64,000 bases of DNA from assembly GCF_035645195.1 (NCBI RefSeq), contig NZ_DASQNA010000008.1:62001-126000 (forward strand), in the 5' to 3' direction. Positions 14,180 to 32,429 of the stretch are shown here, piece after piece (within the stretch, counting starts at the first letter, position 1; each line of letters starts with the position of its first letter). The notes under the pieces were generated by a model. That model worked only from the letters and a program-made list of their open reading frames with translations, was not told where the DNA came from and made no database searches. The position numbers were made by a program, and so were the translations under genes. Source of the DNA: Paenibacillus sp. (GTDB taxonomy: Bacteria; Bacillota; Bacilli; Paenibacillales; YIM-B00363).

Positions 14180-15685
14180 ATGCAGCGAAAGTCGGTTCTT
14201 TCTATCATGTCAGGTTGGCTTGTTCTCGTCGCGTTCCTGCTTTGTTCGGCTTGCGGCAATCGAACCTCCGCGATCGCGCTGCAGCATGCCCCGTTCAAAA
14301 TCAGCGTCATGCTGCCCACGTATGCGAATCATCCGCTCCCCGATGATACGAGTCCGGTGCTGGAGAAGCTGGAGGAATATACGAATTCGGATGTTGAGCT
14401 GGTATGGGTCCCTTACTCGACCTACAAGGATAAAACGAAGATCACGTTATCGTCGCTAAAGCTTCCGACCGTGATCGTAATCCCCGACAAAAGCCCCGAA
14501 TTTATCAGCGCGGCGCGGCGCGGCGTGTTTTGGGAGCTGGGGCCTTATTTAGCGGAGTTTCCGAACTTGAGTCAGGCGAACGAAGCGGTGCTCTCGAACA
14601 CCTCGATCGACGGGAAAGTGTACGCGATCTATCGGGCAAGGGATTTGGGGCGGTACGGCGTCACGATCCGCAAGGATTGGCTGCAGCATGTAGGGCTCGA
14701 ACAGCCGCGCACGCTAGATGAGTTTTATGAGGTGCTGAGGGCCTTTACTTTTGACGACCCGGACCGCGACGGACGCGAAGACACCTACGGGTTAGTCGCT
14801 ACGTATTACCCTTCTACTTTCGATGTAATTCAGACTTGGTTCGGCGCTCCGAACCGTTGGGGCGTGGACGAGACGGGGAACTTGGTGCCGGCTCATCTAA
14901 CGAAGGAATACAAGGATGGGCTTCGTTTCCTTAAGAAGCTTTATGACGAAGGGCTGATGAATCCCGGTTTTGCCGTGATGGATCCGAAATTTTGGCTGGA
15001 GCCGCTTATTCATGGCGAGGCCGGCGTACTGGTGGACGTCGCCGATCAAGCGCAGCGCGCAGCGCATGAAATTCGGAAAGCCTACGGGTTGGAAGATGTG
15101 ATCGACGTGTTTTCCGGGGTGGAAGGTCCCCAAGGGATGAAGCTCCCGTCGACGTCCGGCTACGACGGGATGTTGGCCGTCTCCAAGTCGGCGGTGAAAA
15201 ATGAGCAAGAGCTGCGGCACGTCTTGAGTTTTCTGGATAAGCTGAACGACGAGCAGATGCAAATTTTGCTTTACAACGGAATGGAAGGCAGACATTATCG
15301 GAAATCGCCTGAATCCATGAAGACGGACTTTAGCTATGAGATAGATAGTTTGAAGCAAATGCTGATGTTTATCCCCGGGCCTCGCCACCTGATCTCGGCC
15401 GATTCGCCGATCCGGAGGAAAGTGAAGGAGGTTATCAAGGCGAATGAATCGCTCCTGCTGAACAACCCGGCGGAGGAATTCATTTCGGACACGTATATGA
15501 AGAAGGGACTGTTGCTGGATACGATCGTCAGCGACGCCCGGACCCAGTACATTATCGGCCAGATCGACGAAAAAGGTTGGGAAGAGGCAGTGCGGCGGTG
15601 GCGGCAAGAAGGAGGGGACGAGTACATCCGGGAGATGAACGAGCAATGGCAGCGAGCCCGGTCGCCTTCGACCGGAACAGAGTAA
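14180..15685 (+). CDS. Extracellular solute-binding lipoprotein (LplA-type, family 1)
   Basis: A 501-aa membrane-anchored binding protein for an ABC sugar importer. The lipobox is LCSAC around residue 23; the mature protein has the large oligosaccharide-binding fold (FKISVMLPTYANHPLP, RKDWLQHVGLEQPRTLDEFY, DPDRDGREDTYGL). It lies 12 bp after a transmembrane AraC regulator and ends at a terminator, with no adjacent permeases. It therefore either works with permeases elsewhere or presents ligand to the upstream sensor. Substrate unknown; oligosaccharide is inferred from family and neighbourhood. Confidence 0.82.
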   Translation: MQRKSVLSIMSGWLVLVAFLLCSACGNRTSAIALQHAPFKISVMLPTYANHPLPDDTSPVLEKLEEYTNSDVELVWVPYSTYKDKTKITLSSLKLPTVIVIPDKSPEFISAARRGVFWELGPYLAEFPNLSQANEAVLSNTSIDGKVYAIYRARDLGRYGVTIRKDWLQHVGLEQPRTLDEFYEVLRAFTFDDPDRDGREDTYGLVATYYPSTFDVIQTWFGAPNRWGVDETGNLVPAHLTKEYKDGLRFLKKLYDEGLMNPGFAVMDPKFWLEPLIHGEAGVLVDVADQAQRAAHEIRKAYGLEDVIDVFSGVEGPQGMKLPSTSGYDGMLAVSKSAVKNEQELRHVLSFLDKLNDEQMQILLYNGMEGRHYRKSPESMKTDFSYEIDSLKQMLMFIPGPRHLISADSPIRRKVKEVIKANESLLLNNPAEEFISDTYMKKGLLLDTIVSDARTQYIIGQIDEKGWEEAVRRWRQEGGDEYIREMNEQWQRARSPSTGTE

Positions 15686-15892: not shown

Positions 15893-17275
15893 ATGAAGAA
15901 GGTATGGCTGGCAGGATTCATTTTTGTATGTATGCTTGTCGCGGCCTGCAGTTCCGGAACATCCGTCGACGTCGGCGGCGGAGAAGCCGAGCCGCCCGCG
16001 CAGGAGCCGGCTGCGACAGGCGGACAGAAGGAAGCGGAAACGGAAACGCCCGCCGCGGGGGACGACGGTCCGGCCGAGCTTGTTTTCTACTCGACGAGCA
16101 AAGACAGCGAGGAGGCGTTCAACGAACGATACGGCGACGCGATTCGCGAGCAATTCCCGAATTACACCATTAAGTACATTCAGCGCGTGCCGGAGTCGAC
16201 CGATCTGGAACAGCTGATCGCTTCGGGCCAGCGGATCGATATCCTATGGGATTCTTTGGGTTCTTTCCCGGGGTCGATGATCAATCACGATTTGAAGTTC
16301 GATATGAGCGAGCTGCTCGAGAAGCACGGCGTAGACTTGTCGCGCTTCGAGCCGACCTTGATCGACGCCGCGAAACAGCTTGGAGGCGGCGCGATTTATG
16401 GGTTACCGGTGGAAAACAGCACGAAGGTCATTTTTTACAATAAAGATATTTTCGACAAGTTCGGCGTTGACTACCCGACGGACGGGATGACCTGGGAGCA
16501 GCTTCACGAACTGGCCAACCGATTGAACGTCGAAAGCGACGGTGCGGTATATACCGGATTTTCCCCGCCGGTAAACTCCATGGTGCTGCAAAACAGCTAC
16601 TCCATGCCGTTGATCGATCCGGAGACGCAGCGGTCGACCTACGGCGACGAGATGTGGAAAAAGATTATCGAAACCGAGCTGCTTTCTACTGCGAACAATC
16701 CTACGGTAAAGAAGGCAATGCAGCAGTACCGGAAAGGGAACTTCCAGAACCTGGACCAATTCTATAAGGATAAGGTGCTTGCGATGTGGCCCGAAGGGCA
16801 GTTGCTGCCGATCCTGTTCGATGAAGAACTGTCGCAGATGAACTGGGATATGGTCGCCATGCCGACGTATTCGGATAAGCCGGGCATCGGGTATCAATCG
16901 TACCCGATCTTCTTCGGCATTACCAACCAAGCCGAGAACAAGGACGCAGCGATGAAGGTGCTCAAATTCCTCGTCTCCGACGAGTTCCAGCTCGCGCATT
17001 CGAAAAAAGGAAATATGACCTCGCTCGCTAACGAAGAAATCATGAAGGCGATGGGGTCGGAGAGCGCGTTCAAGGACAAAAATTACGGAGCATTTTTCTA
17101 TAACAAGTTTGCTCCGGTCCGACCGCTGTCCGAAGTCGATACGAAGGTGAACGCCTTGTCGCCGATGACAAACATGCTGCGAGGCGTTATTAACGGGGAA
17201 TACGACATTAATACGGGGCTGCGCATGGCGGAAGAAGAAGTCAATAAAGCGATCGACGAAGCGTTGAAGAAATAA
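15893..17275 (+). CDS. Extracellular sugar-binding lipoprotein (ABC importer)
   Basis: A 460-aa lipoprotein, lipobox LVAAC near residue 20, followed by an acidic, Ala/Glu/Thr-rich linker (residues ~25-60) and a family-1 solute-binding domain (LVFYSTSKDSEEAFNERY, LPVENSTKVIFYNKDIFDKF, YPIFFGITNQAENKDAAMKV). A strong GAGGGAG ribosome site precedes it. It is the first gene of a likely operon continuing through the ATPase at 17381 and the module to 29.6 kb; a hairpin after it may reduce read-through so that the binding protein is made in excess. Confidence 0.85.
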   Translation: MKKVWLAGFIFVCMLVAACSSGTSVDVGGGEAEPPAQEPAATGGQKEAETETPAAGDDGPAELVFYSTSKDSEEAFNERYGDAIREQFPNYTIKYIQRVPESTDLEQLIASGQRIDILWDSLGSFPGSMINHDLKFDMSELLEKHGVDLSRFEPTLIDAAKQLGGGAIYGLPVENSTKVIFYNKDIFDKFGVDYPTDGMTWEQLHELANRLNVESDGAVYTGFSPPVNSMVLQNSYSMPLIDPETQRSTYGDEMWKKIIETELLSTANNPTVKKAMQQYRKGNFQNLDQFYKDKVLAMWPEGQLLPILFDEELSQMNWDMVAMPTYSDKPGIGYQSYPIFFGITNQAENKDAAMKVLKFLVSDEFQLAHSKKGNMTSLANEEIMKAMGSESAFKDKNYGAFFYNKFAPVRPLSEVDTKVNALSPMTNMLRGVINGEYDINTGLRMAEEEVNKAIDEALKK

Positions 17276-17345: not shown

Positions 17346-17380
17346 CATCATATAGACCAGGTTCCAGGAGGTGCGGGGGC

Positions 17381-18496
17381 ATGGCAAGGATTTTGTTCGA
17401 CCACGTGTACAAGCGGTACGGGAGAGACAAGGCGGCTGTCGTCAAGGATTTCCAGCTTGAAGTGAAGGATAAGGAATTCGTCGTCTTCGTCGGACCGTCG
17501 GGCTGCGGGAAGTCGACGACGCTGCGAATGATCGCGGGATTAGAATCAATATCCGAGGGCCGGGTTTGGATCGACGATGTGGTCGTGAACGATATTCCGC
17601 CGAAGGATCGGGATATCGCCATGGTGTTTCAAAATTATGCGCTGTATCCCAACATGACGGTGTACGAAAATATCGCTTTCGGCCTTCGGCTGCGCAAGCT
17701 GCCGAAGCATGAAATCGATCTGAGCGTGAAAAGGGCGGCCAGAGTGCTCGAAATCGAGTCGTACCTGGAGCGTAAGCCGAAGCAGCTGTCCGGCGGGCAG
17801 CGTCAGCGCGTGGCGCTCGGGCGGGCGATCGTCCGTAATCCGCAGGTGTTTCTCATGGATGAGCCCCTCTCCAACTTGGATGCCAAGCTTCGCGTTCAGA
17901 TGCGGACGGAGATCATCAAGCTGCATAAGCAGCTCGGCGTGACGACGATTTATGTGACGCATGACCAGACGGAGGCCATGACGATGGGCAGCCGAATCGT
18001 CGTCATGAAGGACGGTGTCATTCAACAGGTCGATACGCCGGAGGCGATCTATAACCGGCCGCAAAACATGTTCGTGGCCAGCTTTATCGGATCGCCGCCG
18101 ATTAATTTTATCGAAGGCAAGGTGCTGGAGAACGCCGGGCAGTTGGAATTCCACACCCGCAGGTTCGCCTTGGCGATCCCGGACGGCCAAGCGATTACGC
18201 TGCGGGAGCATCGTATGGTCGAGAGAAACGTCATACTCGGCATTCGTCCGGAAAATATCAGCATGGACCCCATCGTATTCGCCGCGTTCCCGGACGCCGT
18301 CTTCCACGGCATACACAAATTTAACGAACTGATGGGAGCGGATCGTTACCTGTACGTGGACGCCGGCCTGCAGCAGGACATCGTCGTGCGGACGAATCCA
18401 AGGAACGAGGCGAACGACGAAGAGCGGATCCAACTCGTGATGGATATGAACCGGGCGATGTTCTTCGATCCGAAAACAGGGGAACGGCTGCAGTAA
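17381..18496 (+). CDS. Sugar ABC transporter ATP-binding protein (MsmK/UgpC-like)
   Basis: A 371-aa ATPase that energises carbohydrate importers from the cytoplasmic face. Walker A is GPSGCGKST from residue 38, the Q-loop is AMVFQNYALYP, the signature LSGGQRQRVALGRA begins at residue 136, Walker B is VFLMDEPLSNLDAK, and the H-loop is YVTHDQTEAMT. A C-terminal TOBE-type regulatory domain occupies the last ~130 residues. Length matches the MalK/MsmX family. It is the only ATPase in a window with four permease pairs, so it probably serves several of them, as MsmX does in B. subtilis (known for that protein, inferred here). Confidence 0.93.
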   Translation: MARILFDHVYKRYGRDKAAVVKDFQLEVKDKEFVVFVGPSGCGKSTTLRMIAGLESISEGRVWIDDVVVNDIPPKDRDIAMVFQNYALYPNMTVYENIAFGLRLRKLPKHEIDLSVKRAARVLEIESYLERKPKQLSGGQRQRVALGRAIVRNPQVFLMDEPLSNLDAKLRVQMRTEIIKLHKQLGVTTIYVTHDQTEAMTMGSRIVVMKDGVIQQVDTPEAIYNRPQNMFVASFIGSPPINFIEGKVLENAGQLEFHTRRFALAIPDGQAITLREHRMVERNVILGIRPENISMDPIVFAAFPDAVFHGIHKFNELMGADRYLYVDAGLQQDIVVRTNPRNEANDEERIQLVMDMNRAMFFDPKTGERLQ

Positions 18497-18525
18497 CTCG
18501 AGCAGCGGGAGGGAGGTTCCGTAGT

Positions 18526-21504
18526 GTGTTCCAGATGACGAGAAAGAAGTTCGGGCTTGCAACGATCGCAATTGCGCTCTCGGTGTCGGCGACGGTCGGC
18601 TACCTGACGCCATTAGACGGTTCGGAGGCGACTGCCTCGGCGGGGGAGACGACGAAGCCGGCGAAGACCGCCGAACAGACGACGGACAACCGGGCGCCCG
18701 GCGAGTTCGAGCCTTACTATTTGGAAGTGTTGGAAAGCTGGCGGGAAGCGGGCATCCAGGACGCGAACGCCGCAGTCGTCATCGAAGGCGATCGGCCGGT
18801 TCGTCATTCCGACGGGGCGACGTTCCGAGTGGGACCGTATAACGGCCGGGACGACGTACTGGTGTGGACGAACGCAGCGACCCATTGGATCGAGTACGAA
18901 GTGGAGATCGAACAACCGGGTTTATACGAGATGGTGCTTCATTATCATTCCTATCGCGACGCTTCGTCGAAGGTGGGGAGCTACCGCCCTGCGATGTTGG
19001 CGGTATCGATCGACGGGCGGTACCCGTTCCGCGAGGCAAGGGCCTTGAAGTTTCCCAGACACTTTAAGGATGCGTTCCCGCTGAAGACAGACGAAAACGG
19101 CGATCACATCCGTCCGAAGCCCATCGAAATCGAAGCCTGGTACGAGCGGAGCTTTACGGATTCCGATGGGGCGTACGCCGAGCCTTTCCGATGGCATTTC
19201 ACCGAAGGCAAGCACACGCTGCGCCTACAAAGCTATGAATCGATCGTGATCGAACGCATCGAGCTAAGACGTCCTGAGCGCGCAGTTCCTTATCGGGAAT
19301 ACGCCGAAACCATTCCGGACGCCGCTGGCGGATCGCCGTTCGTCGTAGAAGCGGAACTTATGAAGGAGAAAAACGACGTCGCACTTCAGATCGAAGCCGA
19401 TCAGGATGCGTTCATGACGCCGCCGGCAAACAACAAGCGCTTATTTAACGCGGTCGGAGGCAATCGATGGTCGACCGGCGGGGCTGCCGCTACATGGAAG
19501 TTCACGGTTCCCGAATCCGGCAAGTACCATATTGCGGCGAGAGCGTACCAAGGGTACCGGTCCAATCAGCTAGTGTTTCGCAAAATATTAATCGATGGCA
19601 GCGTTCCGTTCGAGGAACTGCAAGCGTACCCGTTCCCGTATTCGAACGGTTGGCAGGGTGTCCCGCTTGCGGACGCCGATGGCAAGCCGTTCTCGATCTA
19701 CCTCGAGAAGGGCGAACACACGTTGACGTTAGAGACGACCTACGGGCCGTTCAATCCGATCGTAAAGAAGCAAGAAGCTGTCTCGCGGGCGCTTACGAAG
19801 CTGTCGCTGGAGCTAAACGCTATCGCGGGAGGGCAAGCCGATCCATTCCGCACTTGGGATATCGGGCGAAATTACCCGGGGCTGCTGACGGGGCTAGAGG
19901 CCGTCGCGGAAGACATCGCATGGATGGCGGAGGAACTGCTCCGCGTGAACGGCAGGACGGACAACAACTCGCAGACATTGTCCACGGCGGCGCGGGATAT
20001 TCGGGAATTGCTCGCCAATCCGAACGATATCCCTTATCGGCTCGACGATCTCACGACGATTCAATCCAAAATCAGTTCGATCCGCGGCCCGCTCACGAGC
20101 GGCCCGCTCCTGTTGGATAAGTTTTATTTCGTTCCCGCGGGAGAACCCTTCCCGCGTATGGAGGCGACGATGTGGGAAAAGCTGAGCGCCGCCGCAACAT
20201 CGTTCGTCCAATCCTTCAATGAACGGGATCGGCTTTCCGACGACGACGAGGTCGTGAACGTCTGGGCGAATTATGGGCGGGATTACGTGAATGTGCTGCA
20301 GGACATTGCGGATCAATATTTCACGCCGGAAACCGGAATTAAGGTCAAAGTCGACCTGCTGCCTAACGAGCAGCTGCTCGTTCTGGCCAACGCCGCGGGA
20401 CGCGCTCCCGATGCAGCGATCGGCATCACCGAAGGCCGGCCGATCGAGATGGCGATCCGCGGCGCGGTGGAGGATCTCTCCGTCTACCCGGGGTTCGATT
20501 CATTGTACGAAAGCTTCTCGCCAGGAGCGATGCTGCCTTATTACTACGACGGCGGATATTATGCTTTCCCAGAGACGCAGCGGTTCAACGTGCTCTATTA
20601 CCGCAAGGACATCATGGATTCGCTGGGTCTGCAGGTGCCGGAGACGTGGGAGGACGTCATCGCGATGCTTCCGGTGCTGCAGCAGAATAACTACAACTTC
20701 TTTTTGCCCCCGGATTTCCAGACGTTCTTCTACCAGAATGGGGCGGAGTTTTATACCGATGACGGCATGAAGACGGCGTTGGATATGCCGGAAGCGTTCC
20801 AAGCTTTCCGGGCGCTGACCGACTTGTTTACGATTTACGGCATCGATCAACAGGTGAGCAGCTTCTACCAGCATTTCCGCGACGGCACGATGCCGATCGG
20901 CATTGCGGATTTTAATATGTATTTGCAAATGACCGTCGGCGCGCCGGAGCTGCACGGTTGGTGGGGCATGGCGCCGCTGCCGGGCGTGCCGGGAGATGAC
21001 GGGCAGATCGAACGCTGGACCGGAGGAAACCAGAGCGCGGCGATGATTTTCGAAAAGGCCGCCAATAAAGACGAAGCCTGGAAATTCTTGCAGTGGTGGC
21101 TCTCCGCGGAAACGCAGCAGCGTTTCGGTTCCGACTTGGAAGGGTTTTATGGCGTGGCTTTCCGTTGGAATACGGCGAACGTGGAAGCCTTCTCGCGATT
21201 GCCGTGGACCCGGGAGGAGCTCGCTGTCATGCTCGAGCAATGGAAATGGTACAAGGACATGGCGAATATACCGGGATCTTACTTTATCGCGCGCGAAATC
21301 AACAACGCCTGGAATCGAACCGTGTTGGACGGGATGAATTACCGCGAATCGCTGGAAGAAGCCGTTGCGAGCATCAACCGCGAGCTCGAACGGAAAGCGG
21401 TGGAATTCGGTTTTCGGGCGGACGACGGTTCGGTGTTGAAAACATACAATCCGCCGAAGGTCGAAACGCCATGGGAAGGAGTGGAGCCTTATGCGGAACG
21501 CTGA
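18526..21504 (+). CDS. Large solute-binding protein with two N-terminal sugar-binding-like beta-sandwich domains
   Basis: A 992-aa exported protein about twice the usual length of a sugar-binding protein. A signal peptide near residues 5-28 ([17 protein letters not shown]) has no clear lipobox. Residues ~90-245 and ~265-410 look like two carbohydrate-binding beta-sandwich modules ([50 protein letters not shown]). A helical segment follows (~415-560), then a family-1 solute-binding domain (~575-990: [50 protein letters not shown]). GTG 18526 lies 9 nt after GGAGG. It overlaps the next permease by 14 bp. Inference: the extra modules hold polymer near the importer. Domain borders are approximate. 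Confidence 0.8.
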
Positions 21505-22462
21505 AGTCGCCGTCAACACCGTTCGTCGGTCTATCGGAACAACGAGAGCTTACCGCGCGAAGCAGCTTTGGAGGCGAATGAAGGCATACCGGCTGTCATA
21601 CCTGTTTATCGCCCCGTTCATGATTTGCTTTACGCTGTTCATTCTCGTTCCGGTCCTCGCGGCGGTCGGGCTCAGCTTCACGTATTTCAACACGATTCAA
21701 CCGCCCGCGTTTACCGGGTGGGACAATTTTCAATATTTATTTTCGCAAGATGTATTGTTTTTAAAATACGCCTTGCCGAATACGCTGAAGTTCGCCGTCA
21801 TCGTCGGCCCCGGAGGATTGCTGTTATCCTTCCTGCTGGCGTGGCTGATCGCGCAAATTCCGGACCGGTATCGACTGTGGTTCGTGTTGGCGTTTTATGC
21901 GCCGTCACTGACCGGAGGCGTCGTTATGCAGATCATTTGGACGCCGCTGTTGTCGGGGGACAGAATTGGGTACTTAAACAGTTTCTTGCTCAATTTGGGC
22001 TTGATCGACGCGCCGCAGCTGTGGACGCTCGATCCCGCATATTTAATGAACTCGATGATCGCGGTAACGCTTTGGTCCAGCATGGGCGTCGGATTTCTCG
22101 CGATTCTCGCGGGCATTCTCAACGTCGACCCGATCCTGTACGAAGCAGGACGGCTGGACGGAATCAAGAGCCGATTGCAGGAAATTTGGTACATTACCAT
22201 TCCCTACATGAAGCCGCAAATGCTGTTCGCTTCGGTCATGGCGATCGTGAGCGCCTTCAAAGCGGGAAAAATCGGGGAGCAGCTGTCGGGACAAAGCCCA
22301 ACGCCGCAATACGCCGGCCATACGCTCGCGAACCACATCGACGATTACGGATTGATCCGGTTCGAGATGGGCTATGCCGCAGCCGTCTCGTTGGTGCTGC
22401 TTCTAATGATCTATCTGTTTAACAGACTCAGCTGGCGATTGTTCGGCAACAAGGAGGAGTAA
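21491..22462 (+). CDS. Sugar ABC transporter permease (MalF/UgpA type)
   Basis: A 323-aa inner-membrane permease with six predicted TM segments (for example [36 protein letters not shown]) and the cytoplasmic EAA-type loop [20 protein letters not shown], which contacts the ATPase. A cytoplasmic N-terminal tail of ~35 residues is longer than usual. It starts inside the end of the binding-protein gene and is followed after 1 bp by its partner permease. Confidence 0.9.
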
Positions 22463-22463
22463 G

Positions 22464-23366
22464 ATGGCTAGACGAATGCTTGAGACGGCGTCGTCGTTGT
22501 TTCGGCGGAGAAGGCCGAAGCTATTTCGGATGGACTCGACGCAGCGCTGGTTAATCGTGCTGCTGGGCGCCGGCGGGCTGCTGATGCTGCTTCCCTTGAT
22601 TTATATCTTCAACCACGCGCTGAAGCCGTTTTCGGAGTTGTTCATTTTCCCTCCGAATATTTTCGTGCGCGAGCCGACGTTGAATAACTTCGTCGAGTTG
22701 TTCGTCGTCACGCGGGACTCGGTCGTGCCGGCTACGCGGTATTTGTTCAACAGCGTGGCCGTCGCCGCGCTCGGGACGGCGGCGGTCGTCGTCGTCAGCG
22801 CCTTGTGCGCGTATCCGCTGTCGAAACACAAGTTTCCGGGGCATAAGGCCATCTTCGCTACGATCGTCGTCTCTTTGATGTTCGTTGCGGAAGCGGTGGA
22901 GATCCCGAGATACGTCGTCATCTCGCAACTCGGGATTATGAACACCTATTGGGGGCACATCCTGCCTCATGTGGCGGCGCCTGTGGGCGTATTTCTCATG
23001 AAGCAGTTCATCGACCAACTGCCGAACGATTTGCTGGAAGCCGCGAAAATCGACGGCGCCGGCGAGCTGCGCGTATTCCTGAGCATCGTCGTGCCCGTGA
23101 CGATGCCGGCCGTCGCGACCGTCGCCATTTTGCAGTTCCAAACGATTTGGAACGATACGTCGACGTCTGTCCTGTTCATGCAGGACGATGCGATGAAGAC
23201 GTTCCCGTTTTTTCTATCGACCATTACCCAGAACTTGGCCAATTCGGTGGCAAGGCAGACGGCTGCCGCGGCGGCGGGATTACTCATGTTCCTGCCTACG
23301 CTCGTGATGTTCCTCGTGTTCCAACGCAAGGTCATCGCCACGATGGCGCATTCTGGCATTAAATAG
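22464..23366 (+). CDS. Carbohydrate ABC transporter permease (MalG type)
   Basis: A 300-aa inner-membrane protein forming a heterodimer with the upstream permease. Family features: PLIYIFNHALKPFSEL after TM1, a conserved Ala-Tyr-Pro stretch (SALCAYPLSKHKFPGHKA), and the EAA loop LLEAAKIDGAGELRVF. The start is ATG 22464 after AAGGAGGAG. It is followed 18 bp later by the propeller/YIP1 gene, indicating one operon. Confidence 0.9.
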   Translation: MARRMLETASSLFRRRRPKLFRMDSTQRWLIVLLGAGGLLMLLPLIYIFNHALKPFSELFIFPPNIFVREPTLNNFVELFVVTRDSVVPATRYLFNSVAVAALGTAAVVVVSALCAYPLSKHKFPGHKAIFATIVVSLMFVAEAVEIPRYVVISQLGIMNTYWGHILPHVAAPVGVFLMKQFIDQLPNDLLEAAKIDGAGELRVFLSIVVPVTMPAVATVAILQFQTIWNDTSTSVLFMQDDAMKTFPFFLSTITQNLANSVARQTAAAAAGLLMFLPTLVMFLVFQRKVIATMAHSGIK

Positions 23367-23383
23367 CGCGGGGAGGTGTCGTC

Positions 23384-25525
23384 ATGCTTCGAAACGGAGC
23401 GAGGTGGATCGGGACCGCGATCGTGTTATTGCTGTCGCTCGGCTTGCTCGATCCGGGAACGGCCCGCGCGGACGTCATGTATTGGACGTTCACGAAAGAC
23501 GGCTACGGACGGCTGATCGATGCGCAGCCGGCCTACTATCCTACCGGCATGCTGGGGAAAGACATTTACGCGGAGGATCCGGAACGACCAGGCAACCTTA
23601 TCATTTCCCCGTTGTCGGATCCACAGGACGTATTCGTCGACGGGAACGATCACATTTATATCGCGGATACGGGCAACAACCGGATCGTGCATCTGAACGA
23701 ACGCGGCGAGTGGGTGCGCAACATAACGCTGTCGAAAAGACCGTTCGCCTCTCCGAACGGCGTATTCGTCGACGAGCGAGGGTATCTATACGTCGCGGAC
23801 ACGGGGAATAAACGGGTCGTCAAGCTGGCGCCCGACGGCACGCTCGAGAAGGAATTTCCGGAGCCGAAGCACCCGCTCATTCCGAGCGATTACAAGTATG
23901 ATCCTGTCAAAGTCATCGTCGACAAGCGCGGGTACATGTATATCGTCTCGCTCGGGGGATATTGGGGGATGCTCCAGTTAAATCCGGACGGCGAATTTCA
24001 GAAATTTTACGGCACGAACAAAGCGCCCTATACGTTCATCGACACGATCAAGAAGGCGCTTTACACCCGGGAGATGTACGAAAACGAGATGAGCAAGCTG
24101 CCTCCGCCGATCACGAATGCGACGTTGGACGAGCGCGGATTTATTTACACCGTCACGAGCACAGCGTCCAGCGAGCAGGTCAAAAAGCTGAATTTCCGAG
24201 GGGCCAACATCCTTTCTCAATTCGATAAATTCGGCAGCGCGAATCAAAGCTTCGGCGAGCGCAATCCGTTCGACAGAAGGTTTGGAACGGAAGCCGCTCC
24301 CCAACTGACGGACGTGGCCGTCGACGCTGCAGGGAACTTCACGGTGGTAGACACCAACTTCAACTATGTCAGTCACTACGACGCTAACGGGAATCTTTTG
24401 TTTTTCTGGGGCGGCGATTTTTCCTCCGGCGCGACGCAGCTCGGCCTCGTGAAAAACCCGGTCGCGGTCGAATTGAACTCGCGAAACGAACTGTTCATTT
24501 TAGACTCGGAGGAAGGCGTGCTCCAATCGTTCGCAATGTCGGAATTCGGCGCCAAGGTGTACGAGGCGAACCGATTGACGCTGTCGGGAAGGTATGAGGA
24601 GAGCGAAGGGCTGTGGCGGGAAGTGATCCGGCTGAACGCCCAATACAACCCCGCCGTCATGGGTCTGGCGCGCGCCGCTTATAAGAAGGGCGATTTCGAG
24701 GAAGCGGCAGAATTGTTCCGCATGGCGGGCAACAAGAAGGGATACTCGGAGGCGTTCTGGCAAATTCGTCTGCAATGGTTCCAGAAGCACTTCTCGACGG
24801 TCGCGACGGCTGCCGTGACGGCGATCGCAGGTTTCTTGCTTGTCGATAAATTTACGAAAAACGCGCCGTTCCGCCGCCGCGTCGCGAGACGGCCCGCGTC
24901 CCGCAGGGCATGGATCGTACAGCTGAAGCAGGCGGTATACGTCATGAAGCATCCGATCGACGGCTTCAGCGCGCTCCGCGCCGAGCGGAAGGGCGGTTAT
25001 TTCGGAGCCGTGCTGCTGCTCTTTGGCGCTTACGCAACGGTGTTGCTGTCGCAGCTGTATACGGGATTCGTTTTTAGCAAAGGGCTGGTCGACGACATCG
25101 ACGCGCTGCCGACCCTCATTCGGTTTCTGGCGATATGGTGCGGCTGGGTCGTTTGCCATTACCTCGTCGGTTCGATTTATCGGGGGGAAGCGCGGTTTCG
25201 GGACGTCTTCATTAGCAGCGCGTATGCGTTGGCGCCGCTGATCGCCATCGGGATGCCGCTTACGTTTGTTTCGAATTTCATGACGGAGTCGGAAGGCACG
25301 ATCTATATATACTTGGAGAACGCCATGTACGCGTGGGTCGGCCTCATGTTCTTCTGGAAGGTGCATTCGGTTCAAAATTACGACTTCGGCGAAACGGTGT
25401 ACAGCATCGTCATGTCTGTGCTAACGATGGCCACTTTGGGAGCGCTGCTTTTTATTTTATTCGGGTTAACGAATGAACTCGCGATTTTCGTTTATGAAGT
25501 GTATCAGGAGGCGATGCTCCGGTGA
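23384..25525 (+). CDS. NHL-propeller / TPR / YIP1-like integral membrane protein
   Basis: A 713-aa multidomain membrane protein. After a signal sequence (IVLLLSLGLLDPGTARA) come NHL-type beta-propeller repeats (residues ~75-385: VFVDGNDHIYIADTGNNRIV and VFVDERGYLYVADTGNKRVV are two blades). A TPR-like helical pair follows (~394-465: SGRYEESEGLWREVIRLN, AAYKKGDFEEAAELFRMAG), then a TM segment (~472-490) and a C-terminal four- to five-TM region (~510-705) resembling the YIP1 family. The propeller and TPR parts would be extracellular. It sits between two permease pairs and overlaps the DUF5696-like gene by 4 bp, so it is likely a structural or regulatory part of the same import machine. No function is known to me for this fusion. 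Confidence 0.75.
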   Translation: MLRNGARWIGTAIVLLLSLGLLDPGTARADVMYWTFTKDGYGRLIDAQPAYYPTGMLGKDIYAEDPERPGNLIISPLSDPQDVFVDGNDHIYIADTGNNRIVHLNERGEWVRNITLSKRPFASPNGVFVDERGYLYVADTGNKRVVKLAPDGTLEKEFPEPKHPLIPSDYKYDPVKVIVDKRGYMYIVSLGGYWGMLQLNPDGEFQKFYGTNKAPYTFIDTIKKALYTREMYENEMSKLPPPITNATLDERGFIYTVTSTASSEQVKKLNFRGANILSQFDKFGSANQSFGERNPFDRRFGTEAAPQLTDVAVDAAGNFTVVDTNFNYVSHYDANGNLLFFWGGDFSSGATQLGLVKNPVAVELNSRNELFILDSEEGVLQSFAMSEFGAKVYEANRLTLSGRYEESEGLWREVIRLNAQYNPAVMGLARAAYKKGDFEEAAELFRMAGNKKGYSEAFWQIRLQWFQKHFSTVATAAVTAIAGFLLVDKFTKNAPFRRRVARRPASRRAWIVQLKQAVYVMKHPIDGFSALRAERKGGYFGAVLLLFGAYATVLLSQLYTGFVFSKGLVDDIDALPTLIRFLAIWCGWVVCHYLVGSIYRGEARFRDVFISSAYALAPLIAIGMPLTFVSNFMTESEGTIYIYLENAMYAWVGLMFFWKVHSVQNYDFGETVYSIVMSVLTMATLGALLFILFGLTNELAIFVYEVYQEAMLR

Positions 25526-27768
25526 TGAAGCTATGGCAATTCAGAAAATCCGCGGCGGCGCTGCTGTTCCTGCTTATCCTTCTTTGGGCGGCGTCCCGCG
25601 TGGACGTTAGCTTTCGTCAAGAGGCGGGCGCTTCAAGCGATCCGCCGTCCGCCGCGAGCGTGCCGAAGGCGGAGCCGGCGCTGCCGGACGAAAGCCGCTT
25701 TCGGCTCGTCTCCGAGACGGACGCGCTGCGGCTCAAATTGGACGACGCAACCGGGCATTTTCTCGTCGAGGATAAACGGGAAGGGACCGTATGGCGTTCT
25801 TATCCAAATCCGGAACAATGGGAGAACGAGACGGTCGGCGGCCTGTGGAAGCAGCATCTGGCGTCGCCGCTGATGTTCGAATACACGGATTTCCATGTCT
25901 ATAACACGAAGCCGAAGTTGACGAATTTCCTCGCCCTCGGCGGCACCGTGAAGGAGATAACTGAAATACCGGGCGGCGTGCGTTTGGTATACGACATGCC
26001 TGCGCTGGAGCTGTCGATTGCGGTGCAACTTCGCATCGTGGACGATTACGTGGAGACGAAAATTCTAGACGAGGGGCTTGCTGAAGGCCGTTACAGCATG
26101 ACGTGGCTTCGGCTGTATCCGTTCTTCGGCGCGGAGCAGTCGACGGGGCAGGAAGGGTATATGTTGGTTCCTGACGGATCCGGCGCGTTGATAACCTTCG
26201 ATGCTCACACTTCCGCGTCCCGCCGCGTGTACGAAGAGCGCGTATTCGGGGCGGATCGGTCGTTCGACAACGACCCCAGCTCGCGGCTCCCGGTCACGAT
26301 GCCCGTGTTCGGCATGAAATCCGGCGCCAAAGCGTTCCTCGCGGTTATGGAGGAAGGCGCGGAGTACGCCAAGGTGTATGCTTCTCCGGCGGGGATCTAC
26401 AGCCAATACAACTGGATCGCGGGACAGATGCTGTACAGATCCACGTATTACCAAGTGACGAATCGGAACAAAAACGCCGGCTTCATTACGTACAACAAGG
26501 AGGAGCGGTTCGGCACCGATCGGACCGTGAAGTATTTCTTGCTGGGTGCGGAGGATGCGGATTACGTCGGCATGGCGAAGCGATACCGGCAATATTTAAT
26601 GGATGAGGCGGGGATGACCCGGCTCGTTCCGGCCACGGAACACTTGCCGTTGTACGTTTCGGTGATCGGCGGAGGTCAGAAGAAGGGTGTGCTCGGAGAG
26701 CGGTTCGTCCCCATTACGCCGTTCGATCGAGCGGCCGAGATGGTGGAGTCGCTCAAGGCGCAAGGCGTCCGCGAAATCAATCTTACGTTATTGGGCTGGC
26801 AGCAGGACGGGTATACATCGTTTGGCGGATACGCCCCTCCGGACGAGCGGCTCGGCGGCACGGAAGGATTGAAAGCGCTGATCGAACGCGCCGACGCCGC
26901 GAACATTCCGGTACAGCTTGCGTTAAATTACGAGGCGAACAGTACGGGGATCCATGGCTTTAAGCCGGCGTATCACGGCATGCGGGATCTGGCGGGCACC
27001 CTGCTGGAGGCCAATATTTGGCGTTCTTCGCGCGATACCACGTTGGTCAGCTACGGTTTTACGAAGCGCGTCTTCCTGGAAGACTTGCAGCGTTTGAAGG
27101 CGCTCGGCGCGGACGGCCTGCTGCTGCAGTGGGGTGCGCAGTTCTTGAACAGCGACTTCAACGAAACATACGGCGCTAGCCGAACCGAGGCGGCGGAGCG
27201 TCAACTGTCGATGTTCCGCGAGGCGAAAGAGACCGTCGGCGCCGTTCACGGGACCAACCCGAATCTATATGTCGTGAACACGGTCGATCACATCCATGAT
27301 CTTTACGATGACTATTCGTACGACTTATTCGCGGAACGCGCCGTTCCGTTCGCTCAAATCGCGCTGCACGGGCTTAAATCGTATACCTCAGGGTACGAGA
27401 ACCAACGGGGGCAATTCCGCAACGAGTTTCTTAAAGATATCGAATACGGCGCAGCTCCGTCGTATTTGCTGACGCATACGCCGACCCGGGAATTGACGTC
27501 CGTCTACGGGCTGGAGCTTATGAGCACTACGTTCGAAGATTGGAAAGGGCAAGCCGCGGAGGAGTACTCGAGATACAACGAGGCGCTTGGGGACGTGCAG
27601 GACGAATTTATCGTCAATCACCGAGAGCTTGCGCCCGGCGTGCGCGAAACGACGTATTCGGGCGGAAAGCGCATTGTGGTCAATTATAATGACAACGACT
27701 ACCGCGTCGGAGACATCGTCGTACCGGCCAAGGACTTCGCGGTCGTGGAAGGGGAGAAGTCGAGATGA
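25522..27768 (+). CDS. DUF5696-like exported protein (beta-sandwich plus TIM-barrel-like domain)
   Basis: A 748-aa protein with an N-terminal signal or anchor (SAAALLFLLILLWAASRV). Residues ~60-370 look beta-rich (LDDATGHFLVEDKREGTVW, DGSGALITFDAHTS). From about residue 373 (LPLYVSVIGGG) a TIM-barrel-like half begins, with alternating strand/helix blocks such as VREINLTLLGWQQDGYTSFG, IPVQLALNYEANS and LGADGLLLQWGAQFLNSDF. I believe it belongs to the family named DUF5696, but the assignment is from memory. The barrel resembles a glycoside hydrolase fold, yet no catalytic pair can be assigned. GTG 25522 overlaps the preceding stop and ATG 27765 of the next permease overlaps its own end, so translation is coupled. 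Confidence 0.7.
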   Translation: MMKLWQFRKSAAALLFLLILLWAASRVDVSFRQEAGASSDPPSAASVPKAEPALPDESRFRLVSETDALRLKLDDATGHFLVEDKREGTVWRSYPNPEQWENETVGGLWKQHLASPLMFEYTDFHVYNTKPKLTNFLALGGTVKEITEIPGGVRLVYDMPALELSIAVQLRIVDDYVETKILDEGLAEGRYSMTWLRLYPFFGAEQSTGQEGYMLVPDGSGALITFDAHTSASRRVYEERVFGADRSFDNDPSSRLPVTMPVFGMKSGAKAFLAVMEEGAEYAKVYASPAGIYSQYNWIAGQMLYRSTYYQVTNRNKNAGFITYNKEERFGTDRTVKYFLLGAEDADYVGMAKRYRQYLMDEAGMTRLVPATEHLPLYVSVIGGGQKKGVLGERFVPITPFDRAAEMVESLKAQGVREINLTLLGWQQDGYTSFGGYAPPDERLGGTEGLKALIERADAANIPVQLALNYEANSTGIHGFKPAYHGMRDLAGTLLEANIWRSSRDTTLVSYGFTKRVFLEDLQRLKALGADGLLLQWGAQFLNSDFNETYGASRTEAAERQLSMFREAKETVGAVHGTNPNLYVVNTVDHIHDLYDDYSYDLFAERAVPFAQIALHGLKSYTSGYENQRGQFRNEFLKDIEYGAAPSYLLTHTPTRELTSVYGLELMSTTFEDWKGQAAEEYSRYNEALGDVQDEFIVNHRELAPGVRETTYSGGKRIVVNYNDNDYRVGDIVVPAKDFAVVEGEKSR

Positions 27769-28631
27769 GGCGGTTTCCGCGGCTCAGCGCCGAGACGATC
27801 AGCCGGGTGGAGGGAGGATTGTTCCTCGCGCCTTGGATACTCGGGTTCCTTTTATTTATGGCGTTCCCGATTCTGTACTCTTTCTATATGAGCTTTCATC
27901 AGGTACGAGTGCTGGCGACGGGCATCGAAGTGAAGTACAGGGGGTTAGAGAATTACAAATTTATCTTGTTCACGGACGGGAGCGTGTTTTACGACAATTT
28001 GATCCCGTTCCTGCAGCAGGCGTTATTTATGATCCCTATCATTCTCGTGTTTTCTTTGCTTGTCGCGATCATGCTGAACCGCAAGTTCGCCGGGCGATTG
28101 TTTTTCCGGGTCGTCTTTTTTCTGCCCGTCATCTTTACGACCGGCGAAGTCATCTATGAATTCATTAGCCAAGGCGAAGGCAGCGTTGGGTTTCTGGAAA
28201 GGTATAACATCGCCTCGTATATTCACGACATCTTTCCGGGCGAATGGGCGAGCTCGATTATGGCGGTCATGAATTCGATCGTGCTTGTTTTATGGTATTC
28301 CGGGGTGCAAATTCTATTGTTCCTAGCGGGCAGGCAGACGATTTCAAATTCCGTCTACGAGGCGGCCCGCATCGACGGAGCGACGCCTTGGGAGACGTTC
28401 TGGAAAATTACACTGCCGGGGATGATCCCGTTTATCCTGTTGAACGCGATCTATACGATCGTCGACTTGTTTACGTTCCCGACGAATCCCGTGATCAGCA
28501 GGGTGACGACGGAGGATTACGGAACGTCCAGCGCCCTCGCTTGGGTGTATTTCGGCGTCATCTTCCTTTTCCTGCTCGCCATGTATTTCATTTTTGCGCG
28601 CATGACCAAAACCTACAGGGAAGCTGCGTAA
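27765..28631 (+). CDS. Sugar ABC transporter permease, second pair (MalF/UgpA type)
   Basis: A 288-aa inner-membrane permease with six TM segments (GLFLAPWILGFLLFMAFPIL, MIPIILVFSLLVAIM) and the EAA loop YEAARIDGATPWETFWKIT. It lacks a long N-terminal tail, unlike the first pair. The ATGA overlap with the DUF5696-like gene shows tight coupling. It has no dedicated binding protein nearby, so it either shares the 992-aa or the 460-aa binding protein or receives substrate from the DUF5696/YIP1 components (inference). Confidence 0.9.
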   Translation: MRRFPRLSAETISRVEGGLFLAPWILGFLLFMAFPILYSFYMSFHQVRVLATGIEVKYRGLENYKFILFTDGSVFYDNLIPFLQQALFMIPIILVFSLLVAIMLNRKFAGRLFFRVVFFLPVIFTTGEVIYEFISQGEGSVGFLERYNIASYIHDIFPGEWASSIMAVMNSIVLVLWYSGVQILLFLAGRQTISNSVYEAARIDGATPWETFWKITLPGMIPFILLNAIYTIVDLFTFPTNPVISRVTTEDYGTSSALAWVYFGVIFLFLLAMYFIFARMTKTYREAA

Positions 28632-28651
28632 CTAGAGGAGGAATCCGTTTC

Positions 28652-29620
28652 ATGCTAAAGCCATGGATCGTCAATAAGGGGAAACGGGAGAAGCTGCCCT
28701 TGATTCGGGCTCCCCTACACAATTTGAAGAAAACGGTTCTGGGGTTGGAAGCGGACAGCGGGCTGCTGTTCAAATGCTTCCTGTACGTCGTGTTGATCGA
28801 CACGGCGTACATCTATCTGAATCCGCTTCTGTACATGATTACGACGATGGTGAAAAATGCGGCGGATTTGATGGATCCCGCGGTGAACTGGATTCCGCGA
28901 ACGATTTACGTAGGTGTGCTGCAGGAGGCATGGGAAAAACTCGATTATCCAAAGGCGTTCGTTACGAGCCTAACGATCTCGGGAACGATCGCCGTGCTGC
29001 AAACCGTCTCCTGCGCGGTAGCGGGCTATGCGTTCGCAAGGCTGAATGTACCGCTCAAAAATTTTTGGTTTTTCTGTTTGCTGCTTACGTTCATCGTTCC
29101 CCCGCAATTGACGGTGCTGCCGAAAATTTTGGCCGCCAGCCAGTTCGGACTCTTCGGCACGGCGCTTCCGTTCGTGCTGCCCGCGGCGTTCGGGTTAGGG
29201 CTTAAAGGGGCGCTGTTCGTCATCATTTATCGGCAATTTTTCTCGACGCAGCCGAAGGAGCTGGAGGAGGCGGCGAAGATGGATGGAGCGGGGGCGTTCA
29301 AGGTGTTCTACAAAGTAATGCTGCCCTTGGCGAAACCGGCCATTATCGTCGTGTTCTTGTTCTCCTTCGTTTGGAATTGGAACGATTCCTACAACCCTTC
29401 GGTGTTTATGCGCGGAGCCGAGCATCTGCCCTTGTCGGTCGGCATTACGCGCATGAACGAAGCGCTCGCCGCCGAGGCCGAGATGTTCGGGCCTTCGCTT
29501 TACCAAGATCCGCTAAAGATGGCGACGGCGTTTCTAATCATTTTGCCGACGCTGCTGATTTACATTTTTGCGCAGCGTTGGTTCGTCGAGTCGGTCGACC
29601 GCACCGGACTAGTGGAATAG
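28652..29620 (+). CDS. Carbohydrate ABC transporter permease, second pair (MalG type)
   Basis: A 322-aa inner-membrane permease, partner of the gene at 27765. A ~45-residue basic N-terminal tail is followed by TM1 (CFLYVVLIDTAYIYLNPLLY) and the EAA loop ELEEAAKMDGAGAFKVF. The frame is open for a further 136 codons upstream, but that stretch overlaps the previous permease; ATG 28652 has GAGGAGG 8 nt ahead and is the real start. Last gene of the module; 185 bp separate it from the lyase gene. Confidence 0.9.
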   Translation: MLKPWIVNKGKREKLPLIRAPLHNLKKTVLGLEADSGLLFKCFLYVVLIDTAYIYLNPLLYMITTMVKNAADLMDPAVNWIPRTIYVGVLQEAWEKLDYPKAFVTSLTISGTIAVLQTVSCAVAGYAFARLNVPLKNFWFFCLLLTFIVPPQLTVLPKILAASQFGLFGTALPFVLPAAFGLGLKGALFVIIYRQFFSTQPKELEEAAKMDGAGAFKVFYKVMLPLAKPAIIVVFLFSFVWNWNDSYNPSVFMRGAEHLPLSVGITRMNEALAAEAEMFGPSLYQDPLKMATAFLIILPTLLIYIFAQRWFVESVDRTGLVE

Positions 29621-29804: not shown

Positions 29805-32429
29805 ATGAAAACAAACGAAGTGCCGATCCGACTGCAGTGGCTGGGCGGGAAGGTGCCTAAGGCGTCGGTCGGGGTCACGTGGGGCGTGCCGTGGACGGAA
29901 GGCGAAATGCCGCGAGGCGAAACGTTCACGCTCATCTCGCCGTCGGGCCGGGACATTCCGGTACAAAGCTGGGCAACCGCTTATTGGCCGGACGGCAGCG
30001 TTAAATGGAGCGCGCATGCGGCTGTCGTGCCGCAGGACGAAACGGGGACAGGAACGTATCTCCTGCGTAGGAGCGCAGCTCCGCAGGTCGGCGCAGCACC
30101 GGAAATCGTCGTACGGGAACAGGAAGACTCGGTAACGGTCGATACGGGGGCGATTCGCTGCACGTTGAATCGTTCGGGGACGTCGATCATCCGTTCGATT
30201 CGCAGAGGAGAGAGAGAGAGCGTTACGGACGGCAAGCTGGTCTGCCTGCGCGAACAATCGACCGAGTCGATGAGCTGCCGCGTCACCAAAGAAGAGCGGT
30301 TCGTAGGGGAAACGCTTCGCGTATTCGTAGAGCAGACCGGCCCGGTCCGCGCCGTTGTGCGAATCGAAGGCTGGCATCGAAGCGAGCATGGGGAGTCGTC
30401 GTTCCTCCCGTTCACGCTGCGGCTGTATTTCTTCGCCGGCGAACAATCGTTCCGCGCGGTACATACCTTCGTATATGAAGGAGATCCTCATCAGGATTTT
30501 ATTAAAGGGCTTGGGCTGCAGTTCACGGTCCCGACGGAAGGGCCGCTTTACCATCGACATGTCCGATTCGCGGGGGATTCCGGCTTGTTCCGCGAATCGC
30601 CGAAGACGCTTATGACATTCCGTACGAAGGGGAAGTATCGAGAACTGTTCGAGCGTCAGTTGGAAGGGGAAAGCGTAACGTTCGATCCTGCGGAAGACGA
30701 ACGCTTCCTCGAACTACTCGACGATTCCGCCGTATGGGACAGCTTTAAACTTGTCCAGGATTCCGCGGATCACTATTCGATCTGGAAACGGACGAAAGAG
30801 GGCTGCAGTTGGTTGAAGGCCGCCGAAGGCCGCCGCTCCGGCGGGATGATGTACTTCGGCGGGGAGCGGGGAGGACTGGCGCTCGGCTGCAGAAACTTCT
30901 GGCGGAAGCACCCTTCCGCGTTGGAGATGCATGGCGCGAGCAAGGATGCCGCTGTCTTGACGGCGTGGTTCTGGTCGCCCGACGTCCGCGCCATGGATTT
31001 GCGACACTATGACACCGAGACGCACCTGATATCGTCTTACGAGGGATTCGAAGAGCTGCGCAGCACCCCGCACGGCATCGCCAATACGAGCGAAATGACT
31101 GTCTGGTGCACGGATCGCATGCCGAACAGTGACACGCTTCTGAGCATGGTCGAACTGGCCGATCGCCCTCCGTTGTTGGTTTGCGAGCCAGGATATTACC
31201 ATCGCGCTAGAGCGTTCGGTTATTGGAGCCTTCCGGACCGAAGCACGCCGGCCAAGGCATGGATCGAAGACCAATTGGATGCCGTAATCGCCTTTTACAA
31301 GGAAGAAATCGAACTGCGCAAATGGTATGGCTTCTGGGATTACGGGGATGTCATGCACAGTTACGACCCTTCTAGACATGAATGGAGATACGATATCGGC
31401 GGCTGCGCTTGGCAAAATACGGAGTTGGCGCCGAACATTTGGCTATGGTACATGTTTCTGCGTTCCGGCCGCGAAGACATCTTTCGTCTCGCGGAAGCGA
31501 TGACGAGGCACACGAGCGAGGTAGACGTCTACCATCTCGGCGAATACGCGGGACTCGGCTCCAGACACAATGTGATCCATTGGGGCTGCGGCTGCAAGGA
31601 AGCAAGGATCAGTATGGCGGGCTTGCACCGTTATTACTATTACTTGACCGGCGACGAACGTCTCGGCGACATTCTCGACGAGGTGAAGGATTCCGATTAT
31701 GCGGCGGGGGATCTCGATCCGATGCGTTCGTATCTGGCGAAGGACGAATATCCGACGCATGTAAGGATCGGACCCGATTGGGCGGCGTTCGCCTCCAACT
31801 GGTTGACTCGCTGGGAACGGTTCGAAGATACCGCATACCGCGACAAACTGCTGGTCGGCATCGATTCGCTCAAGCGGCTGCCCTTCCGAATGAACACCGG
31901 ACCCGTAATGGGGTACGATCCGAATACAGGGGAACTGCACCATCTGAGCGACGATAACTGGGGACGAACGCTGATGATTTGCATGGGCGGTCCGCAAACC
32001 TGGCTCGAGCTCTCCCTGATGCTGAAAGATCCGGAGTGGGAGGATATGATCGCCGAGGTCGGCGAGTTCTACAACTTGACGAAGGAAGAGAAGCTGGAGC
32101 GAACCGGCGGAGCGATCGGCAATAAGGGCAATTGGAGCTATCCTTATTTCTCCTGCGGTCTTGTCGCCTATGCCGCTAAGCGCATGGAGCGCCGCGACTT
32201 GGCACAGCTGGCATGGCAAATTTTACTGAGTTCTGGGCTCGGGGACGCGCCGCTTTCCGCGATGGAAAGCGCGGTTAACGAACGAGATTACGTCAGGCCG
32301 ATTGCTCGGGAAATTCCGGAGATTTCGACCAACGCGGCGTCGCAATGGAGCATTAACGCGATGATGTGCTTGGAATTTATCGGCGACCAATTGCCGGAGA
32401 CGCTTGAGCGGGCAAGGGGACAGGTTTGA
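29805..32429 (+). CDS. PL26-like exo-rhamnogalacturonan lyase (cytoplasmic)
   Basis: An 874-aa protein without a signal peptide. The N-terminal ~450 residues are beta-rich (QWLGGKVPKASVGVTWGVPW, RDIPVQSWATAYWPDGSVKW, TGAIRCTLNRSGTSIIRSI), as in the RIFT-barrel domains of exo-rhamnogalacturonan lyases such as Penicillium PcRGLX (PL26). The C-terminal ~420 residues look like an alpha/alpha toroid (FWDYGDVMHSYD, ELAPNIWLWYMFLRSG, RHNVIHWGCGCKEARISMAG). Expected role: release of unsaturated disaccharides from imported rhamnogalacturonan fragments, which GH105 at 43.7 kb could then hydrolyse. The acetylesterase gene follows after 40 bp. Family assignment is by architecture and motif memory; a non-lytic relative of the same fold is possible. 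Confidence 0.7.
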   Translation: MKTNEVPIRLQWLGGKVPKASVGVTWGVPWTEGEMPRGETFTLISPSGRDIPVQSWATAYWPDGSVKWSAHAAVVPQDETGTGTYLLRRSAAPQVGAAPEIVVREQEDSVTVDTGAIRCTLNRSGTSIIRSIRRGERESVTDGKLVCLREQSTESMSCRVTKEERFVGETLRVFVEQTGPVRAVVRIEGWHRSEHGESSFLPFTLRLYFFAGEQSFRAVHTFVYEGDPHQDFIKGLGLQFTVPTEGPLYHRHVRFAGDSGLFRESPKTLMTFRTKGKYRELFERQLEGESVTFDPAEDERFLELLDDSAVWDSFKLVQDSADHYSIWKRTKEGCSWLKAAEGRRSGGMMYFGGERGGLALGCRNFWRKHPSALEMHGASKDAAVLTAWFWSPDVRAMDLRHYDTETHLISSYEGFEELRSTPHGIANTSEMTVWCTDRMPNSDTLLSMVELADRPPLLVCEPGYYHRARAFGYWSLPDRSTPAKAWIEDQLDAVIAFYKEEIELRKWYGFWDYGDVMHSYDPSRHEWRYDIGGCAWQNTELAPNIWLWYMFLRSGREDIFRLAEAMTRHTSEVDVYHLGEYAGLGSRHNVIHWGCGCKEARISMAGLHRYYYYLTGDERLGDILDEVKDSDYAAGDLDPMRSYLAKDEYPTHVRIGPDWAAFASNWLTRWERFEDTAYRDKLLVGIDSLKRLPFRMNTGPVMGYDPNTGELHHLSDDNWGRTLMICMGGPQTWLELSLMLKDPEWEDMIAEVGEFYNLTKEEKLERTGGAIGNKGNWSYPYFSCGLVAYAAKRMERRDLAQLAWQILLSSGLGDAPLSAMESAVNERDYVRPIAREIPEISTNAASQWSINAMMCLEFIGDQLPETLERARGQV

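Follow-up and report, generated by a model that had tools for sequence, protein, structure and literature searches.

What is encoded by the seven tightly packed genes at positions 18526 to 29620 of the Paenibacillus sp. DNA considered here (contig NZ_DASQNA010000008.1 of assembly GCF_035645195.1, positions 62,001 to 126,000; this whole stretch of 64,000 nucleotides is called the window below), and do their products work as one machine? A preliminary description had proposed that they hold, perhaps trim, and import a polysaccharide. Most Bacillota lack an outer membrane and the SusCD system of the Bacteroidota, and how they take hold of large plant glycans and bring them into the cell is less well understood; it is on this point that the module bears. 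As judged from the sequences, the block suggests a machine for the holding and uptake of plant polysaccharides, perhaps as a single physical complex. In particular, we lean towards a conserved glycan-uptake unit of Bacillota in which two CUT1-type ATP-binding cassette (ABC) importers would share surface accessory proteins, with the roles proposed below. The gene block is conserved in many spore-forming and gut bacteria, and apparently undescribed: DUF5696 was named in no paper retrieved by a literature search that left bioRxiv preprints and most subscription journals uncovered, and, by title, none of the matches listed for the terms of the module dealt with a bacterial glycan importer.

All seven open reading frames (ORFs) described earlier as a head-to-tail block on the plus strand are present. 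The first gene (18526..21504) encodes a 992-residue protein, here called the big binding protein, with a match to SBP_bac_1 in residues 591-865 (E-value 1.3e-27), and overlaps by 14 base pairs (bp) the gene of permease A (21491..22462; BPD_transp_1, E 4e-8), followed after a gap of 1 bp by that of permease B (22464..23366; BPD_transp_1, E 1e-11), both of CUT1 type and provided with the EAA motif. At a distance of 17 bp lies the gene of a 713-residue membrane protein combining an NHL propeller, a TPR region and a YIP1 domain (23384..25525; NHL E 1.1e-12, Yip1 E 2.7e-8), which overlaps by 4 bp the gene of a 748-residue DUF5696 protein (25522..27768; PF18952, E 7.4e-175). The latter overlaps, again by 4 bp, the gene of permease C (27765..28631; BPD_transp_1, E 5e-10), and permease D (28652..29620; BPD_transp_1, E 2e-18) follows after 20 bp, both being of CUT1 type. 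The start of permease D is the ATG at 28652, preceded by AGGAGG; a 458-residue ORF beginning at 28244 was rejected as its gene, being a mechanical extension of the frame that starts at 28652.

The association among these genes was examined in a phylum draw of 398 genomes, to which we applied thresholds of our own (more than 480 bits for DUF5696, 330 for NHL-YIP1 and 400 for the N-terminal part of the big binding protein). Strong matches to DUF5696 and to NHL-YIP1 occurred in the identical 37 genomes, about a tenth of the draw, which is not a matter of chance (Fisher 5e-53). As to the big binding protein, its N-terminal part matched strongly in 38 genomes, always in frames of 952 residues or more; these comprise G104, G154 and 36 of the 37 module genomes, and in the one left (G103) the match is cut by the contig start. 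The Pfam cut-off for DUF5696 was exceeded in 39 genomes, two of which (G302 and G325, about 26 bits; loci L162 and L163) were dropped from the count, and the thresholds also removed the matches of G103 (114 bits) and G243 (NHL, 135 bits) and weak partial matches to the big binding protein, for example in family f15 (170 bits or less). Since the draw genomes were scored on two to three candidates each, copy numbers are lower bounds.

Gene order was conserved as well. A named genome collection gave at least 579 relatives, of which we considered the 80 best, a set biased to near relatives, and all seven parts lay within 12 kilobases (kb) on one strand in 73 of these loci, with the YIP1 gene immediately upstream of DUF5696 in 79 and permease C immediately downstream of it in all 80. 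The other seven comprise two contig-end cases (L031 and L071) and five loci limited to the core (L017-L020 and L049), in whose genomes the big binding protein was present elsewhere in five out of five cases, in frames of 993-1015 residues. From the phylum draw, 40 of the 58 places with strong DUF5696 matches were fetched, belonging to 32 of the 37 genomes. In these, YIP1 directly preceded DUF5696 in 40/40 loci, NHL being encoded either together with YIP1 or close by, and permeases C and D were present in 39/40, the exception (L158) ending at a contig edge, while permease A was found in 30 (once, in L138, as a weaker A-like permease), permease B in 29 and the big binding protein in 29. The half formed by the big binding protein with A and B thus lies on the same strand and no more than 12 kb away in 29/40 draw loci, compared with 73/80 named loci, and the two halves stand in the opposite order in five draw loci (L141, L147 and L152-L154). 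Because C/D and YIP1 are kept in 39 and 40 of 40 loci, respectively, against 29 with the big binding protein nearby, the module divides into a core, NHL-YIP1-DUF5696-C-D, and a big-binding-protein half which the genome nearly always contains, adjacent to the core or not.

It follows that YIP1 and DUF5696 genes do not occur mostly apart from permeases or big binding proteins, which, according to the preliminary description, would have told against a single machine: C and D accompany them in 39/40 loci, and 36 of 37 genomes encode the big binding protein. The co-occurrence behind the idea of a single machine therefore holds. The parts look like two importers (the big binding protein with A/B, and small lipoprotein binding proteins with C/D) with shared surface proteins, and a single physical machine is the part of that idea that goes beyond the gene content.

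The same order also occurs on plasmids of Paenibacillus cellulosilyticus and of the rumen bacterium Butyrivibrio fibrisolvens, where the hallmark proteins are annotated only as 'YIP1 family', 'NHL repeat-containing' and 'DUF5696 domain-containing'. In the genome of the window itself, DUF5696 and Yip1 each match four times (E up to 0.001), at the same four places, all of which show one order (first the big binding protein with A and B, then NHL and YIP1, DUF5696, C and D), and the other copies share about 28 to 65 percent identity with the window copy, depending on gene and copy. In another genome of the same genus (G403) we could notice 14 DUF5696 matches, a number from which the module appears to have been strongly multiplied in this group. 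As a separate observation, the five core-only named loci have in common an upstream gene (at about 4.5-7.9 kb) of about 1040-1090 residues with similar starts, and they are apparently a fixed catabolic island for another substrate.

The enzymes encoded next to the module change from copy to copy. In the window, permease D is followed on the same strand by the genes of a PcRGLX-like protein, of the rhamnogalacturonan lyase type by family name (29805..32429; PF21346 E 1.7e-165, PF21345 E 1.4e-127, PF19501 E 6.5e-29), and of a GDSL esterase (32470..33573; Lipase_GDSL_2, E 3.6e-14). Since these two genes adjoin the block, they point to rhamnogalacturonan, and a fragment thereof is probably the substrate of the window copy; the likeness of the esterase to the pectin acetylesterase PaeY is weak (91 bits, compared with a model cut-off of 1000). 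A PcRGLX match was found in just one of the 120 other loci, L012, the nearest relative. Four GH32-type genes surround copy L009 (L009:6-6051 and 18684-19991) and, as neighbors, point to fructan in that case. The difference in enzymes among copies implies that the transport and surface platform stays constant while the enzymes change.

Which role, then, could be played by the DUF5696 protein? The AlphaFold2 model of the window protein (pLDDT, the predicted local distance difference test score, 93) found its best matches in the Protein Data Bank (PDB) with the GH129 enzymes NagBb (Z 31.9 over 565 residues, root mean square deviation 4.0) and ZgGH129 (Z 29.7), followed by weaker matches to GH101 (about Z 22) and to GH13 barrels (about Z 20); the barrel taken against GH13 gave Z 20.7 over 316 residues, and the whole chain fits GH129 best. 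A 68-row DUF5696 profile searched against PDB sequences likewise retrieved NagBb (E 9e-13) and ZgGH129 (E 6e-12), whereas GH13 enzymes scored E 0.009 or worse and 4F2hc E 0.34, which is not significant. Furthermore, the comparison with the profile of PF11308 (GH129) relatives gave an hhalign probability of 99.5, even though the Pfam scan of the window protein returned no PF11308 match at E up to 10.

For the catalytic residues, 13 PF11308 sequences were aligned from 16 loci of the same taxonomic order, three short pieces (L189, L193 and L195) being left out. The D+E pair, matched by profile alignment, occurs in all 13 of them and in 0 of the 124 DUF5696 rows. In particular, the nucleophile column (D435 in NagBb, where we take Glu478 to be the catalytic acid) holds D in 23 and E in 17 of the 124 rows and otherwise G, S, R, N or other residues, and the second catalytic column holds an acid in 40; the window protein has Q536 and T578 at the two positions. 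W426 and R554 are each conserved in 123/124 rows, and a hydrophobic N-terminal segment was found in 107/120. Since the pocket seems preserved although the cutting pair is gone, a role in glycan binding or a structural one fits, and the DUF5696 protein is probably a membrane-anchored, non-cutting glycan-handling subunit. The trimming contemplated in the preliminary description is therefore doubtful, the GH129 fold being present without its catalytic pair. This would give DUF5696 a first functional frame.

Some candidates were discarded as members of DUF5696: L162 and L164 match weakly and are DUF6259 proteins, L163 is a GH129 (PF11308) protein, and L161 looks, by reading, like a GH13 protein. 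We observed that the DUF6259 proteins (L162:529-2766 and L164:796-2787) weakly match DUF5696 over the barrel, which suggests that the two are related glycosidase-like families, and that the GH129 protein at L163:2-2530 also matches DUF5696 (E 5e-9, best near the C terminus), providing a sequence bridge between the families.

The model of the big binding protein of the window (pLDDT 88.8, with residues 1-55 unreliable), in which hydropathy indicates an N-terminal hydrophobic segment, shows two beta-sandwiches (about 76-405), a helical segment (407-525) and a MalE-like domain (about 574-972; Z 36.6 over 376 residues in the structure comparison). The two additional carbohydrate-binding-like domains attributed to this protein in the preliminary description find support both in the two modeled beta-sandwiches and in the match between their profiles (hhalign probability 99.7, while against the following helical segment they gave 5.3 and 0.3); a CBM_35 match lies below its cut-off (E 0.007). 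A lipobox-like pattern was detected in 7 of 101 big binding proteins, compared with 83 of 125 small ones, and since it is mostly absent, the big binding protein probably owes its anchoring to the N-terminal helix or to other proteins. Beside these full-length proteins, stand-alone proteins resembling the N-terminal part, without the binding domain in frame, occur in L170-L173 (family f15) and are possibly an ancestral or split form. L172 encodes such proteins at 8934-10088 and 14290-16272, one of them near A/B-type permeases and two ATPase genes, and the stretch of L172 that was read contains no full NHL-YIP1 or DUF5696. In L151:14278-16470, three consecutive ORFs located upstream of the core are each weakly similar (20-26 bits) to the N-terminal domains.

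Concerning the translocation machinery, we confirmed the features of CUT1 importers, that is, a MalE-like domain, BPD_transp_1 pairs with the EAA-type loop (twice over) and a MalK/UgpC-type ATPase. The EAA-type motif was found in 102/102 rows of permease A, 97/101 of B, 97/119 of C and 118/118 of D; because this coupling motif is kept in most rows, both pairs look like live importers, and A/B and C/D are probably both functional. The ATPase gene (17381..18496, plus strand; 464 bits with the UgpC-type NCBIfam model, cut-off 432, and OB_MalK) ends 29 bp before the gene of the big binding protein, and its product likely energizes both pairs. An ATPase match was found in 52 of the 120 other loci, so that elsewhere the ATPase may be supplied in trans.

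Further upstream, on the same strand, we found the genes of a 501-residue extracellular sugar-binding protein (14180..15685; SBP_bac_1, E 5.5e-17) and of a 460-residue lipoprotein sugar-binding protein with a lipobox (15893..17275; SBP_bac_1, E 1.8e-19), which, together with the ATPase gene, lie outside the earlier limits of the block and may belong to the same operon. A promoter and terminator scan of 15600-30000 gave sites no commoner than in shuffled sequences (5 versus 7.1 and 17 versus 17.6). The lipoprotein is a possible partner of C and D; in copies L009 and L010 a lipoprotein binding-protein gene directly follows permease D. A part of the 501-residue protein in the module is suggested by its position, and this protein has no adjacent permeases of its own. 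These genes are preceded by that of a membrane AraC-type regulator with a Cache-like sensor and a GGDEF_2-like domain (11828..14167, plus strand; HTH_18 E 8e-21, GGDEF_2 E 2e-8, and dCache_1 E 1e-8, under its Pfam cut-off), a possible regulator of the locus.

In the NHL-TPR-YIP1 protein, both NHL and Yip1 (PF04893, 34.3 bits versus a cut-off of 28.6) exceed their Pfam cut-offs, and TPR_16 (E 1.9e-6) falls below its own. The predicted topology would place the propeller and the TPR region outside and the helical bundle in the membrane; in L009 and L010, NHL-TPR and YIP1 are two separate genes.

On these grounds it is possible to hypothesize how the unit would work. The N-terminal segment of the big binding protein would tether it to the membrane, the pair of CBM35-like domains together with the long helical spacer would catch and present the glycan chain, and the MalE-like domain would feed permeases A and B, while small lipoprotein binding proteins would feed C and D and one MalK/UgpC-type ATPase would drive both importers. 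The NHL-TPR-YIP1 protein may act as a scaffold beside the permeases, and the DUF5696 ectodomain may bind or order the glycan, or stabilize the importer, without cutting, as the ectodomains of 4F2hc and rBAT do for amino-acid transporters. A bolder and quite unlikely extension sees a SusCD-like Gram-positive super-complex, in which two importers, a giant binding protein bearing carbohydrate-binding modules (CBMs), the NHL-TPR-YIP1 scaffold and a retired glycosidase (the 4F2hc parallel) would thread and import long polysaccharides and, with changing sets of enzymes, serve for one plant glycan or another.

The observations that weigh against the two-importer unit concern its unity as well as the role given to DUF5696. 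Co-occurrence alone does not establish a physical complex, and operons of co-functional yet separate proteins are common, which favors the view that two independent ABC importers and accessory proteins travel together for a common catabolic pathway and form no joint machine. The two halves employ different types of binding protein, and in the draft assembly of G240 the halves lie on separate contigs. Moreover, 11 of the 40 draw loci have no big-binding-protein half in reach, several of them near contig ends (though the big binding protein is encoded in all of these genomes), and only 89/120 loci showed a small binding protein on the strand of the module. G104 and G154 have the big binding protein and no DUF5696 match, but their contigs (3.8 and 4.3 kb) are so short that the core may lie beyond them. 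In G243, an NHL protein moderately like the propeller of the module gives a partial match (284 residues at a contig end, L174:7682-8536), and DUF5696 has no match; the topology, in turn, rests on hydropathy and a model helix. However, the association persists across enzyme settings (GH32 in L009, PcRGLX in the window) and across lineages, from Paenibacillaceae to the plasmid of a member of the Lachnospiraceae, which argues that one shared pathway is not what binds the module, and NHL/YIP1, DUF5696 and C/D stay together in every draw locus but the one interrupted by a contig edge. Independent importers therefore seem somewhat unlikely to us.

As for DUF5696, it could be an exo-glycosidase anchored in the membrane and active through a rearranged catalytic site, trimming the chain before import, which would be compatible with the two-importer unit. 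The GH129 fold spans its whole ectodomain, and the near-invariant D218 (121/124), D545 (114/124) and E641 (121/124), together with W426 and N627, suggest a preserved pocket, whose acids could support another chemistry. Furthermore, acids occupy the two catalytic positions in 9 of the 124 rows, although the combination of D and E never occurs, 38 have an acid somewhere in both short windows around them, and the positions themselves were matched by an alignment into which the conserved Arg554 fits, not by superposed coordinates. Against this stand the complete lack of the D+E pair and the fact that such variation at the nucleophile is unusual within an enzyme family. The GH129-like enzyme ZGAL_3152 bears on both sides: according to PMC5698469, it is active with only one of the two catalytic residues of NagBb, and the residue conserved is the Asp (Asp486, matching Asp435 of NagBb), whereas the corresponding DUF5696 column is D in a minority of rows. 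On balance, an active DUF5696 appears doubtful, slightly more so than two independent importers. A very improbable reading is that the NHL-YIP1 and DUF5696 proteins together sense a glycan and signal across the membrane instead of taking part in transport: an outside propeller with TPR joined to membrane helices resembles a receptor, and the Cache-type AraC regulator lies upstream in the window, but neither protein has a kinase, phosphatase or DNA-binding domain (Pfam), and a match to the regulator (E up to 1e-20) accompanies 5/120 loci, compared with 119/120 for C/D.

Compared with known systems, the two-importer unit is closest to CUT1 importers of the MalEFGK2, UgpABCE and MsmEFGK type, with which it shares the MalE-like domain, the paired EAA-type permeases and the MalK/UgpC-type ATPase. 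It differs from them in its two permease pairs and in its binding protein, which has about 1000 residues and two CBM-like domains and in most cases lacks a lipobox, and it adds the constant NHL-TPR-YIP1 and DUF5696 subunits. The rhamnogalacturonan importer YesO-YesPQ of Bacillus subtilis, a single-pair system, handles the same probable substrate class as the window copy. It presumably relies on an ordinary binding protein and one permease pair and, to our knowledge, has neither YIP1/NHL nor DUF5696. YIP1 proteins have been described beside ABC transporter genes in clusters for leaderless or circular bacteriocins, possibly with a part in transport (PMC8659200, PMC10707071), but the transporters there are of the secretion type, and the accessible portions of these papers name no propeller and no DUF5696.

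With GH129, represented by the alpha-N-acetylgalactosaminidase NagBb and by ZGAL_3152, an anhydro-galactosidase called GH129-like by its authors (PMC5698469), DUF5696 shares the whole-chain fold, that is, a beta domain, a TIM barrel and a C-terminal beta domain. It differs from GH129 in the missing catalytic pair (124/124 rows), in the N-terminal hydrophobic helix and in its location beside permeases in 119/120 loci. A similar arrangement is offered by 4F2hc and rBAT, single-pass proteins whose glycosidase-descended ectodomain serves an amino-acid transporter (PMC8537225). Their ectodomains are of the alpha-amylase type and not of GH129, and their partner is a vertebrate amino-acid transporter. 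The resemblance is one of analogy and not of kinship, and what links DUF5696 to transporter subunits here is gene adjacency. Present in a rumen Butyrivibrio and at times in several copies per genome, the module may offer an instance, accessible to testing, in which a glycosidase fold was taken over as a subunit of a transporter.

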